From NCBI RefSeq assembly GCF_012932365.1, contig NZ_JAAIIH010000013.1:1-64000 (forward strand): a DNA stretch of 64,000 nucleotides, read 5' to 3'. The position numbers and the translations under genes were made by a program. Below, in pieces: positions 8,580 to 53,482 of this stretch. The notes under the pieces are model-generated. The model did no database searches, had not been told where the DNA came from, and saw nothing but the letters and a program-made list of their open reading frames with translations. This DNA comes from Bifidobacterium moraviense. GTDB taxonomy: Bacteria; Actinomycetota; Actinomycetes; Actinomycetales; Bifidobacteriaceae. Numbering within the stretch: the stretch's first letter is position 1; every line of letters starts with the position of its first letter.

Positions 8580-8585
8580 CACAAT
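8580..8585 (+). promoter_or_regulatory. -10 element of a probable leaderless transcript (GNAT gene)
   Basis: CACAAT is followed by 7 nt and the GTG at 8593. The alternative ATG at 8584 would overlap this hexamer. Confidence 0.4.
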
Positions 8586-8592
8586 GGTGGGC

Positions 8593-9246
8593 GTGTCCGT
8601 GTTCCAGTCCATCAAAGGCATCTTCCAGACCCATGCCGCAGGCGAGCGCGCGTTCGTGATGCCCGAGCGCCTGAACGCGCCGCAGGGGTTCGCGCAGATC
8701 AGTCTGCGCCCCATCACCGAGGACGACCAGCAGGAGTGGAACGACGTGCGCTGGGGCAACCGCGACTGGCTGGCGCCGTGGGAGTCCGGCGACCCGATGA
8801 GCGGCAGGCTGCTCTCGTTCAACGAGTGGGTGCGTCGGCTGCGTGCGGGGGAGGAGGCCGGCACCGGCGCCGTGTTCCTCATCGAATACCAGATGCGCAT
8901 CGTGGGGCAGATCTCCATCGGCGCCATCAGCTACGGGTCGCTGCGCACCGGGATGATCGGCTACTGGGTGGCGCGCGACTGCGCCGGACGCGGGTTCGCG
9001 CCGCTCGCCGTGGCGATGCTCGCCGACTGGGCGTTCCGCGATCCCACCGGTCCGCGCCTGCACCGCATCGAGATCGCCATCCTGCCGGAGAACGAGCGTT
9101 CGCGGCGCGTGGTGGCCAAGCTGGGGCTCACGTACGAGGGGATCCGCCGCCGGTACATGTTCATCGGCGGGCAGTGGCGCGACCACGAGACCTACAGCCT
9201 CCTGTCCACCGACCAGCCCGGCAGCCTCACCGCCCGCCTGCGCTAG
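8593..9246 (+). CDS. GNAT-family N-acetyltransferase, RimJ/RimL-like
   Basis: A protein of 217 residues if it starts at GTG 8593, or 220 from ATG 8584. It carries the RimJ/RimL pattern: SLRPITEDDQQEWNDVRWGN near the N-terminus, then GYWVARDCAGRGFAPLAVAM, the acetyl-CoA binding motif A, and RIEIAILPENERSRRVVAKLG near the end. Members acetylate the N-terminal residue of ribosomal or other proteins. It is monocistronic, between the LacI gene and a 62-bp repeat array. The GTG start is preferred because a CACAAT -10-like element lies exactly 7 nt before it, as for other genes here. The acceptor protein is unknown. Confidence 0.85.
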   Translation: MSVFQSIKGIFQTHAAGERAFVMPERLNAPQGFAQISLRPITEDDQQEWNDVRWGNRDWLAPWESGDPMSGRLLSFNEWVRRLRAGEEAGTGAVFLIEYQMRIVGQISIGAISYGSLRTGMIGYWVARDCAGRGFAPLAVAMLADWAFRDPTGPRLHRIEIAILPENERSRRVVAKLGLTYEGIRRRYMFIGGQWRDHETYSLLSTDQPGSLTARLR

Positions 9247-9276
9247 CCGGCGCCCGCGCTCGCGTCCGCGTCCGTT

Positions 9277-9855
9277 GATCGCAACGTTGCGGTGATCGGC
9301 CATGTTGTGGGCGTGCGGGTGACGCTTCGGTGGTCGCTGATCGCAATGTTGCGATGATCGACCATGTTGGGAGCGTGCGGGTGGTGCCTTGATGGTCGTT
9401 GGCCGCAATGCTGTGATGATCGGCCATGTTGGGAAGGTTCGGATGGTGCTTCGGTGGTCGCTGATCGCAACGTTGCGATGTTCGGCCAAATTGGAGCGGT
9501 TCGGATGACTCCCCGGTGGTCGTTGGCCGCAATGCTGTAATGATCGACCAAATTGGGAAGGTTCGGATGGTGCTTCGGTGGTCGCTGATCGCAATGTTGC
9601 GATGTTCGGCCAAGTTGGAGGTGTGTGGGTAGCGCTTCGGTGGTCGCTGATCGCAACGTTGCGATGATCGACCATGTTGGGGGCGTGCGGGTGGTGCCTT
9701 GATGGTCGTTGGCCGCAACGTTGTGATGATCGACCAAATTGGAGCGGTTCGGATGACTCCCCGGTGGTCGTTTACCGCAACGTTGCGGTGATCGGCCATG
9801 TTGTGGGCGCGCGGGTGACGCTTCGGTGGTCGCTGATCGCAATGTTGCGACGATG
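9277..9855. repeat. 62-bp tandem array, ten palindromic cores
   Basis: Cores of the type GATCGCAACGTTGCGATGATC start at 9277, 9339, 9401, 9463, 9525, 9587, 9649, 9711, 9773 and 9835; every step is exactly 62 bp. The best copies contain the perfect 14-bp palindrome TCGCAACGTTGCGA; the copies with GGCCGCAA or TTACCGCAA are degenerate. The ~40-bp linkers fall into about six types that recur out of order (two near-identical copies of three types). The same core and the same 62-bp step occur at 48783-48858 and 53204-53340. Confidence 0.9.
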
Positions 9856-9925: not shown

Positions 9926-11194
9926 ATGGGTTACGAGTCGTTGAGCAGCGTTGTGCTGGTCGCGATCGCCGCTCTGCTGATGTTCGTCTGGGCGCCGCGC
10001 AAGGCCCGCAAAGGCATGAAACGGGCCAGCGAGCATCGGTCGGATCGGTTCTCGGCCTCGCTGCACCTCGTGGACGAGTCAGGCGTCACGCGATTCAACG
10101 ACACGACACCCCCCATTACGAAAGGCTTACTGATGCAGGCAGAACAGCAGCGCAAGGCGTCCAGGCTCACTCCGCAGCGAATCGCGCGGGTCCGCGAGCT
10201 GCGCAGGGCGGCGATCCGTCGTCGCCGCATCGTGGTGTGCGCGCTGTTCGTGGCGACCGTCGTGGTGCTCGCCCTCGCCCTGACGCTGCGCTTCAGCCCG
10301 CTGTTCGCGCTGATCCCGTTCGTCCTGATGGTCACGGTGCTCGGATTCGGCGCCCACGCCTCCGCGCAGGCGCGTGCGTGGGAGGCCGAGGTGGCCGCCG
10401 TGGCCAAGCGCGGCGCCGGCGCCTCGCAGATCCTGCCGCAGACCGTGGGCAAGGCCGCGCGTCCGGTGAGCGCCGCCGCGAAGCCCAATAAGGCCGTCAA
10501 GTCCGCCAAGCCGGCACAGTCTGCCGCCGCGGCGCAGCCCGCCGCCAAGCCGTCCGCCGGTGCGGACACGGACGTGATGATGACCAGCGAGATCCGCGCC
10601 GTGCTCGATCAGGCACGCGCCGAGCAGGCCGTGGCCAAGGCCGAGCGCGCCGCCGCCCGGGCCGATGCCGCCAAGACCGATGCCGCCCGTGCCGCCGCCG
10701 AGCCCGCATCCGCCGCTCCCGCCCAGTCCGCCCAGTCCGCCCAGTCCGCCCAGTCCGCCGAGCCGGATCCCGCCGCCGACGCCGCGGACGTGGCCCGTCA
10801 GGCCGCCGCCGTGGCCGCCGAGCCGTCGGACGCCACCAACGAGCTGCAGCGCATCTCGCCCTCGCACGTGCTGGACGCGTTCGAGCTGGCGTCGTCGCAG
10901 GACCTCATCTCCTTCACGCTCGGCGCGCCGCGTTCCGGCAAGCCGGTGGCGCAGGCCGAACCGGAGAGCATGGAGATCAAGTCCACCCGTCAGGTCGCCA
11001 AGGCCGTGCCGCCCGAGCAGCAGCAGCCGCAGACTCAGGCCCAGTCCCAGTCCGCCCAGTCCGCCGCGCAGGCCCCCGAGTCCGTCACCCTCGCCGCCTC
11101 CGCCGCGGAGCCGGTGGAGGTGGAGGCGCCGGAGGTGTCCGCCGAGTCGCTCGGCGTGGACGTGGACGCGGTCATCGCGCGCCGCGGGCACTGA
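9926..11194 (+). CDS. Membrane protein with Ala/Pro/Gln-rich tail, function unknown
   Basis: A protein of 422 residues. Hydrophobic segments lie at about residues 7-24 (SSVVLVAIAALLMFVW) and 102-145 (two closely spaced helices after an Arg-rich stretch RRAAIRRRR). The remainder is a low-complexity region rich in Ala, Lys, Gln, Ser and Glu, including four tandem AQS units encoded by a 9-bp repeat at 10721-10756. The tail is probably cytoplasmic or extended. No enzymatic motif was seen. The start at 9926 follows a TATGGT -10 element by 7 nt. It precedes groES but is separated from it by the CIRCE-controlled promoter, so it is not part of the heat-shock unit. Confidence 0.7.
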   Translation: MGYESLSSVVLVAIAALLMFVWAPRKARKGMKRASEHRSDRFSASLHLVDESGVTRFNDTTPPITKGLLMQAEQQRKASRLTPQRIARVRELRRAAIRRRRIVVCALFVATVVVLALALTLRFSPLFALIPFVLMVTVLGFGAHASAQARAWEAEVAAVAKRGAGASQILPQTVGKAARPVSAAAKPNKAVKSAKPAQSAAAAQPAAKPSAGADTDVMMTSEIRAVLDQARAEQAVAKAERAAARADAAKTDAARAAAEPASAAPAQSAQSAQSAQSAEPDPAADAADVARQAAAVAAEPSDATNELQRISPSHVLDAFELASSQDLISFTLGAPRSGKPVAQAEPESMEIKSTRQVAKAVPPEQQQPQTQAQSQSAQSAAQAPESVTLAASAAEPVEVEAPEVSAESLGVDVDAVIARRGH

Positions 11195-11269: not shown

Positions 11270-11310
11270 TTAGCACTCGAGTTGGCAGAGTGCTAAATTC
11301 GCGCTACCAT
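11270..11310 (+). promoter_or_regulatory. CIRCE operator and promoter of groES
   Basis: TTAGCACTC (11270-11278), a 9-nt spacer and GAGTGCTAA (11288-11296) form a perfect CIRCE element, the binding site of the heat-shock repressor HrcA. A promoter overlaps it: TTGGCA (11282-11287), a 17-bp spacer, and TACCAT (11305-11310). HrcA binding would therefore cover the -35 element. Confidence 0.95.
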
Positions 11311-48749: not shown

Positions 48750-48780
48750 CGGTGACGTGACGTCGGGACGCGGGTGACGT

Positions 48781-48858
48781 GGCAACGTTGCGATGATCGG
48801 CCGGATTGGCGTCCTCTCGGGGGTCCTTCGATGGTCGTTCGTCGCAACGTTGCGACGG
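48781..48858. repeat. 62-bp repeat family, two cores
   Basis: CAACGTTGCGATGATCGG starts at 48783 and the second core GTCGCAACGTTGCGAC has its CAACG at 48845, exactly 62 bp on. The linker ends TTCGATGGTCGTTCG, as in linkers of the array at 9277. Confidence 0.85.
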
Positions 48859-53199: not shown

Positions 53200-53340
53200 G
53201 CGGCAGCGTTGCGGCCGACGGCCGGATTGCGGGGCCATGCATGGGCTTTCGGTGGCCATCCGTCGCAACGTTGCGATGATGAGCCAAGTTGTGGTTCTTT
53301 CGGAGACTCTTCGTTGGTCGTCTGTCGCAACGTTGCGATG
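53200..53340. repeat. 62-bp repeat family, three cores
   Basis: Cores begin at 53204 (CAGCGTTGCGG, degenerate), 53266 and 53328 (CAACGTTGCGATGA), again with steps of exactly 62 bp. Confidence 0.85.
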
Positions 53341-53482
53341 AGTGGAGAGGTGCGGTGAGCGGAGGGGCGCGATGAGTGGGGCGTTGCGATGAGTGGAGAC
53401 GTCGCGCGATGATGCGTCAGGGCCGACGCCCGACGAGGCGGGACCGGCGGCCCGTCGCGGCGCCCGCCCGTCCCGCATCGTG

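Follow-up and report, generated by a model that had tools for sequence, protein, structure and literature searches.

Bifidobacterium moraviense carries, between a gene for a GNAT acetyltransferase and a conserved hypothetical gene upstream of groES, a tandem array of short palindromes set 62 bp apart. The question raised by this locus is what kind of element holds such a spacing and what, if anything, reads it. A preliminary description of the window, by which we mean the whole analysed stretch of 64,000 nucleotides, had proposed that the spacing is kept by selection and that all palindromes face one side of the DNA helix, as in an array of protein-binding sites.

Organization of the ten-core array

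The ten cores span positions 9278-9851, with 12-mer starts at 9280, 9342, 9404, 9466, 9528, 9590, 9652, 9714, 9776 and 9838, and all nine spacings are exactly 62 bp, in agreement with the preliminary description (TRF: period 62, 9.3 copies, score 552). Across the window, cores with up to two mismatches occur 23 times, compared with 10.1 +/- 3.1 expected, and none of 100 shuffles reached 23. The cores are indeed palindromic, but the 14-mer originally delimited is too short: the best-conserved palindrome in the array, TGGTCGnnnATCGCAACGTTGCGATnnnCGACCA, measures 34 bp. The coordinates of the array, its parts and its neighbours are collected in Table 1.

Table 1. Palindrome arrays of the window, selected parts of the ten-core array and its flanking genes
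Feature	Position	Strand	Remarks
Phased palindrome array	9275-9855	+	Intergenic; 10 cores, 9 linkers, period 62 bp
First core	9278-9293	.	ATCGCAACGTTGCGGT (consensus RTCGCAACGTTGCGAY); left arm TGGTCG absent outside
Best-preserved core with both arms	9641-9674	.	TGGTCGCTGATCGCAACG/CGTTGCGATGATCGACCA
Example linker	9664-9713	+	Left arm atgatcgaccat, variable middle, right arm gatggtcgttggc
Last core	9836-9851	.	ATCGCAATGTTGCGAC; right arm CGACCA absent outside
Flanking gene, GNAT acetyltransferase	8584-9246	+	PF13302; outside the element
Flanking gene, hypothetical protein	9953-11194	+	No Pfam match; start may be 9926; outside the element
Second array in the window	48779-48856	+	2 cores (48781-48854), spacing 62
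Third array in the window	53200-53339	+	3 cores (53202-53337), spacings 62 and 62

The linkers follow the order a b c d c e b d a, with identities of 0.98 between linkers 1 and 9, 0.98 between 2 and 7, 0.94 between 3 and 5 and 0.92 between 4 and 8, and linker 6 standing alone. Linker types thus recur in mixed order as first described, although they number five rather than six, and the linkers differ at no more than 34% of the 50 non-core positions instead of at up to half. Identity is lowest between neighbours (0.49, versus about 0.6 or more at larger lags), which makes multi-unit exchange or gene conversion more likely than neighbour duplication. The earlier suggestion of growth by unequal exchange is therefore plausible, but not in the form of simple duplication of adjacent units.

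Minus-strand frames are mostly open across the array. A coding origin was nevertheless rejected: the period is not a multiple of 3, so that the frames rotate, and the number of stops in each frame varies among the arrays; the conserved reading frame that the preliminary description had named as a counter-argument was not found. Farther downstream, an inverted repeat upstream of groES (TTAGCACTCGAGTTGGCAGAGTGCTAA, window positions 11270-11296) is CIRCE-like.

A genome-wide family of intergenic arrays

The array is a member of a genome-wide, species-specific and non-coding family of intergenic palindrome arrays with a REP/BIME-like layout. A pattern search combined with BLAST over the 2.56 Mb and 39 contigs of the genome, with arrays counted in the retrieved stretches, revealed about 38 arrays comprising 150 cores, which extends the picture well beyond the single array described before. 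Arrays contain 2 to 12 cores, two-core arrays being the commonest class (17 of 38), and usually start and stop at a core, with the arm beyond the outermost core usually absent. Nearly all of the 50 exact 16-bp cores lie within arrays, and isolated cores are rare. Among 112 linkers the spacing is 62 bp in 100, 61 bp in seven, 63 bp in four and 64 bp in one. The preliminary description had allowed for a VNTR or REP family of variable period; the family is dispersed, but its period is nearly invariant.

None of the 38 arrays overlaps a predicted gene, and the palindromes are confined to intergenic DNA. The genes around 33 arrays are co-directional in 22 cases, divergent in seven and convergent in four, approximately following the share of intergenic bases, and arrays are not enriched at any orientation. 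Terminators were ruled out as an explanation, since intergenic regions between convergent genes show no enrichment (4 of 33 arrays, versus 15% of intergenic bases). A shared regulon was likewise ruled out by the varied functions of the genes beside the larger arrays, which include GNAT proteins, transporters, glycosidases and the like; within the window, two LacI-family genes lie near arrays, and the third array is located upstream of a LacI-family regulator gene. We found no plasmid match and no viral contig with paired cores, and a plasmid or phage origin was rejected. The G-rich linker strand is at best a doubtful indicator of the direction of replication or transcription: it agrees poorly in sign with local GC3 skew (11 of 38 arrays, correlation -0.47), and this measure is confounded by gene strand.

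Arrays are clustered on some contigs, with several each on the contigs C37, C38 and C3 of about 100 kb, and the 762-kb contig C1 carries only two, near one end. In the window, the third array runs into a degenerate 17-bp tandem repeat, TGCGATGAGTGGAGAGG (53334-53399), whose start lies within the final core and which seems to derive from the array's end. A terminator-like hairpin with a T-run lies inside a 71-bp linker of the family (L072:12110-12170).

Conserved cores and drifting linker middles

Sequence comparisons revealed that cores are about as similar between arrays (identity 0.872) as within them (0.864). The linker middles fall from 0.585 within arrays to 0.360 between arrays, where composition alone predicts 0.319. 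Informative columns are found in the core and in the arms GATCGRCCAT and ATGGYCGTTC, and hardly in the middle. Cores are thus constrained and middles are not, while linker length is kept. Judged from these identities, the cores are kept by selection or an equivalent process and the middles have drifted almost completely, which bears out the earlier proposal that spacing itself is selected.

Departures from the standard length are informative as well. Off-length linkers with normal arms measure 70, 71, 72, 72 and 73 bp, approximately one helical turn (about 10 bp) longer, and two close core pairs at 41 and 42 bp have weak arms. The intervals of 65-69 and 43-60 bp are empty apart from one pair at 67 bp and two at 47 bp, all of which involve two-mismatch sites without arms.

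Arm pairing, within a linker or across a core, was examined in two runs, the first before and the second after orientation had been normalised. Neither revealed covariation, and pair counts were not above shuffled expectation. A structured RNA was rejected on the lack of both covariation and an Rfam match. The units do fold well as single strands (z -4 to -11), which leaves room for a hairpin role.

Arrays of unrelated sequence in related genomes

A search across the genus had been advised in the preliminary description. BLAST found the B. moraviense repeat in none of the other 111 genomes of the genus, some of which carry analogous arrays that differ in sequence; G001 and G035 have the 14-mer as a single copy, not in an array, in front of a gene reading like a MerR-type regulator. 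In G114, the same site between the GNAT gene and its neighbour is occupied by an array of unrelated sequence with a period of 62-63 bp. This family is large (112 BLAST pieces at about 40 places), and its half-site, TGTGAYATTCCGGCGG, alternates in orientation at every locus read, with successive distances of 31 bp in 50 of 56 cases and 32 bp in 42 of 43. Its arms, too, show no covariation, and the lack of it in both genomes fits a readout of double-stranded half-sites. The nearest relatives by GNAT protein, G016 and G018, have in common a third family with a 62-bp period. Occupation of common sites across species was considered and set aside, as the cases are few and may not exceed chance; they comprise the GNAT locus (G114), a sugar transporter next to L119 and a 206-aa DUF5701 gene next to L200.

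Further arrays vary in symmetry and spacing. In G037, a 62-bp array (L148:11890-12345) consists of 49-bp palindromes that are almost perfect and alternate between two types; in its fifth and sixth units, the match between arms is across the spacer instead of within the unit. G131 (L165:6757-7170) and G104 (L235:6002-6427) have a common 52-bp family with GAGGTTTTGCTTCGCTGAGG and little palindromic symmetry, which suggests that symmetry may not be needed for a helical period. Outside the genus, an identical core, CGCAACGTTGCG, recurs at a 41-bp spacing, close to four helical turns, in Bacteroidota MAGs (Prevotellaceae and Tannerella; L079:481-615 and L080:3298-3391), and at 33-53 bp in Actinomycetota (Herbihabitans; L081-L083).

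Repeat periods across the genus

We surveyed 2.0 Mb of other Bifidobacterium-type genomes, in 100 stretches of 20 kb each, and 0.32 Mb of order-level relatives, in 20 stretches, with an automatic split into coding and non-coding repeats. A CRISPR array with a 64-bp period (L166:3844-5187, genome G013) was left out of the period test. With a strict reading-frame filter, the 2.0 Mb from the genus yielded 22 non-coding arrays with periods of 25-120 bp and the 0.32 Mb from order-level relatives none; as about 3.5 would be expected there at the density of the genus, this contrast is modest. A looser filter returned three order-level candidates, two inside long open frames and one weak, and none was accepted.

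The looser filter, combined with BLAST grouping, gave 23 non-coding families, those of B. moraviense and G114 included, with periods of 39, 40, 41, 51, 51, 51, 52, 52, 53, 60, 60, 61, 62, 62, 62, 62, 63, 63, 63, 72, 73, 88 and 91 bp. These cluster at 39-41, 51-53, 60-63 and 72-73 bp (p<1e-4); the 88- and 91-bp families are off the quantum. A turn of 10.4 bp gives an R of 0.73, and none of 100,000 uniform draws matches the observed mean cosine; with the turn scanned from 10.2 to 10.6, none of 20,000 draws does. This p-value is optimistic, because BLAST is blind to deep homology (it grouped G114, G138 and G029) and families scored as independent may descend from few ancestral arrays. The exact quantum is poorly fixed, as two big clusters, at about 52 and 62 bp, carry most of the signal. 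Among coding repeats, those with a period divisible by 3 lacked a significant signal (p 0.10). A signal was present in the coding class before filtering (p 0.009), for which non-coding arrays misassigned as coding are the most likely reason.

The off-length linkers of B. moraviense are independent support for phasing. Taken together, the 70-73 bp linkers and the periods near 41, 52, 62 and 72 bp uphold the helical phasing first suggested for a single array: a spacing locked near whole turns is well supported, with six turns here and five, six, seven and perhaps four in relatives' families of other sequence.

Proposed phased docking sites and competing explanations

Extending the suggestion of protein-binding sites in the preliminary description, we infer from these patterns that the arrays may be double-stranded docking sites, phased to the helix, for a putative oligomerising DNA-binding protein, a reading that we hold to be evenly balanced between right and wrong. 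The subunits of such a protein would have to occupy one face of the helix, and adjacent protomers would bind cooperatively and then wrap, bridge or stiffen the DNA. Arrays could in this way act as nucleoid-architectural or titration elements at many unrelated intergenic sites, with a sequence code that would change between species and a geometry that would stay. Lrp-type regulators, with sites two or three helical turns apart on a single face of the DNA (PMC2995911), are a precedent for such an arrangement. A housekeeping architectural protein would, however, be unusual in having a code that differs from species to species, which counts against the docking reading.

The strongest competitor is a selfish, REPIN- or MITE-like element, in which inverted half-sites around a variable loop would transpose as a hairpin with the help of a putative mobiliser, arrays would form by insertion beside older copies or by unequal exchange, and ends would stay conserved since copies with poor ends fail to spread. 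In favour of such an element are the REPIN-like combination of inverted arms flanking a variable middle with a high intergenic copy number, the termination of arrays at cores and the rarity of isolated cores. Preferred doublet spacings, of 71 and 110 bp, are known for the REPINs of P. fluorescens (PMC3116915). We consider this origin rather unlikely all the same. A Y1/RAYT transposase (Y1_Tnp, PF01797) is missing from the B. moraviense genome and from G016, G018 and G114, and just 7 of 112 genomes possess one. After recent spread, middles at different loci would be expected to resemble each other, yet they are near random; in G114 the spacing between hairpins is as strict as that within them, a rule that a hairpin unit does not need; and no target-site duplication was noticed in an unsystematic look.

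An element of DNA topology, whose palindromes would extrude as cruciforms or recruit gyrase so that arrays absorb or adjust supercoiling, appears less probable still. A role in supercoiling, involving gyrase, has been proposed for BIME-2 of E. coli. The strong dyad symmetry at two centres per period, the importance of phasing for wrapped DNA and the long, near-perfect palindromes of G037 (fold z -10.8) are in keeping with such a role. It fits poorly with the lack of enrichment between convergent genes, where positive supercoils meet, with arms that show no covariation of the kind that would keep cruciform stems paired, and with two different dyads of unequal conservation.

Very little probability falls to an RNA element, that is, to arrays transcribed as a string of hairpins that would stabilise mRNA, cause its termination or be bound by an RNA-binding protein. 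The units fold as single strands (z about -4), and the co-directional neighbours of most arrays make read-through possible; against this, Rfam has no match, arm pairs are no more frequent than in shuffled sequence, no gene orientation is enriched, and hairpins need no whole-turn spacing of the DNA, within or between them. Equally improbable, and already disfavoured, is a neutral satellite grown by unequal exchange whose constant length would merely reflect few indels: such minisatellites are common and linker types do recur within arrays, but length is kept in 100 of 112 linkers whose middles are near random between arrays, cores are still 87% identical between arrays, length deviates in steps of about 10 bp, and unrelated families have the same period.

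Short palindromic repeats are common in bacteria, and the usual explanations for them are transposases or RNA hairpins. Here geometry is conserved and sequence is not, as BLAST-dissimilar families in different species of the genus keep whole-turn spacing, which points to a physical constraint, probably a protein on DNA. This makes the docking reading directly testable. The arrays would account for a share of the intergenic DNA in an important gut genus, and they might serve as strain-typing markers. More tentatively, and with the balance against it, the arrays could represent a genus-wide and so far undescribed class of chromosomal element: palindrome arrays of a satellite-like kind, with sequence turnover from species to species and a constant helical geometry. 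The oligomeric DNA-binding protein that reads them would be fast-evolving or promiscuous and would organise the bifidobacterial nucleoid.

Comparison with known systems

On bifidobacterial palindrome arrays or helically quantised repeat periods we found nothing on point in the openly readable literature, and the portions of text searched in surveys of REPs and prokaryotic satellites do not mention Bifidobacterium. The arrays resemble REP and BIME elements in being intergenic, palindromic, present in many copies, alternating in orientation and clustered. They differ in their near-invariant 62-bp tandem register, in the variable dyad between conserved dyads, and in the occurrence of unrelated sequence families with the same helical spacing across the genus. 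In REPs, one palindrome end bears an unpaired tag, GTAG or CGTC (PMC3733652); in the column consensus of 100 linkers, GTAG is absent and CGTC occurs only inside a paired arm. REPINs with RAYT in Pseudomonas share with the arrays the inverted half-sites, variable middle and preferred spacing, and some of them form ordered tandem clusters (PMC3116915). The B. moraviense genome has no RAYT, however, its larger loci are mostly long arrays instead of doublets, and spacing between units is as strict as within them. On the absence of both tag and RAYT, we do not file the family as REPIN or tagged REP.

The family is not CRISPR. CRISPR arrays have a similar period (64 bp in that of G013), a palindromic repeat and a fixed spacer length, whereas here repeats and arms vary, linkers recur in mixed order, and the 38 arrays are short and scattered; cas-like genes were not found among the scanned neighbours of the larger arrays.

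LacI-family operators offer a lead only: the central AACGTT of the core is like that in the operator consensus of the bifidobacterial LacI-family regulator RbsR, TGATAAAACGTTTTATCA (PMC4746261), but such operators are unlike a set of 150 tandemly arrayed sites whose neighbouring genes have many different functions. By analogy, Lrp/AsnC-type sites and plasmid iterons would be similar in the use of one helix face, in whole-turn spacing and in cooperative binding, which is putative for the arrays. The arrays differ from both in having up to 12 sites each, about 38 unrelated loci and a period of six turns.
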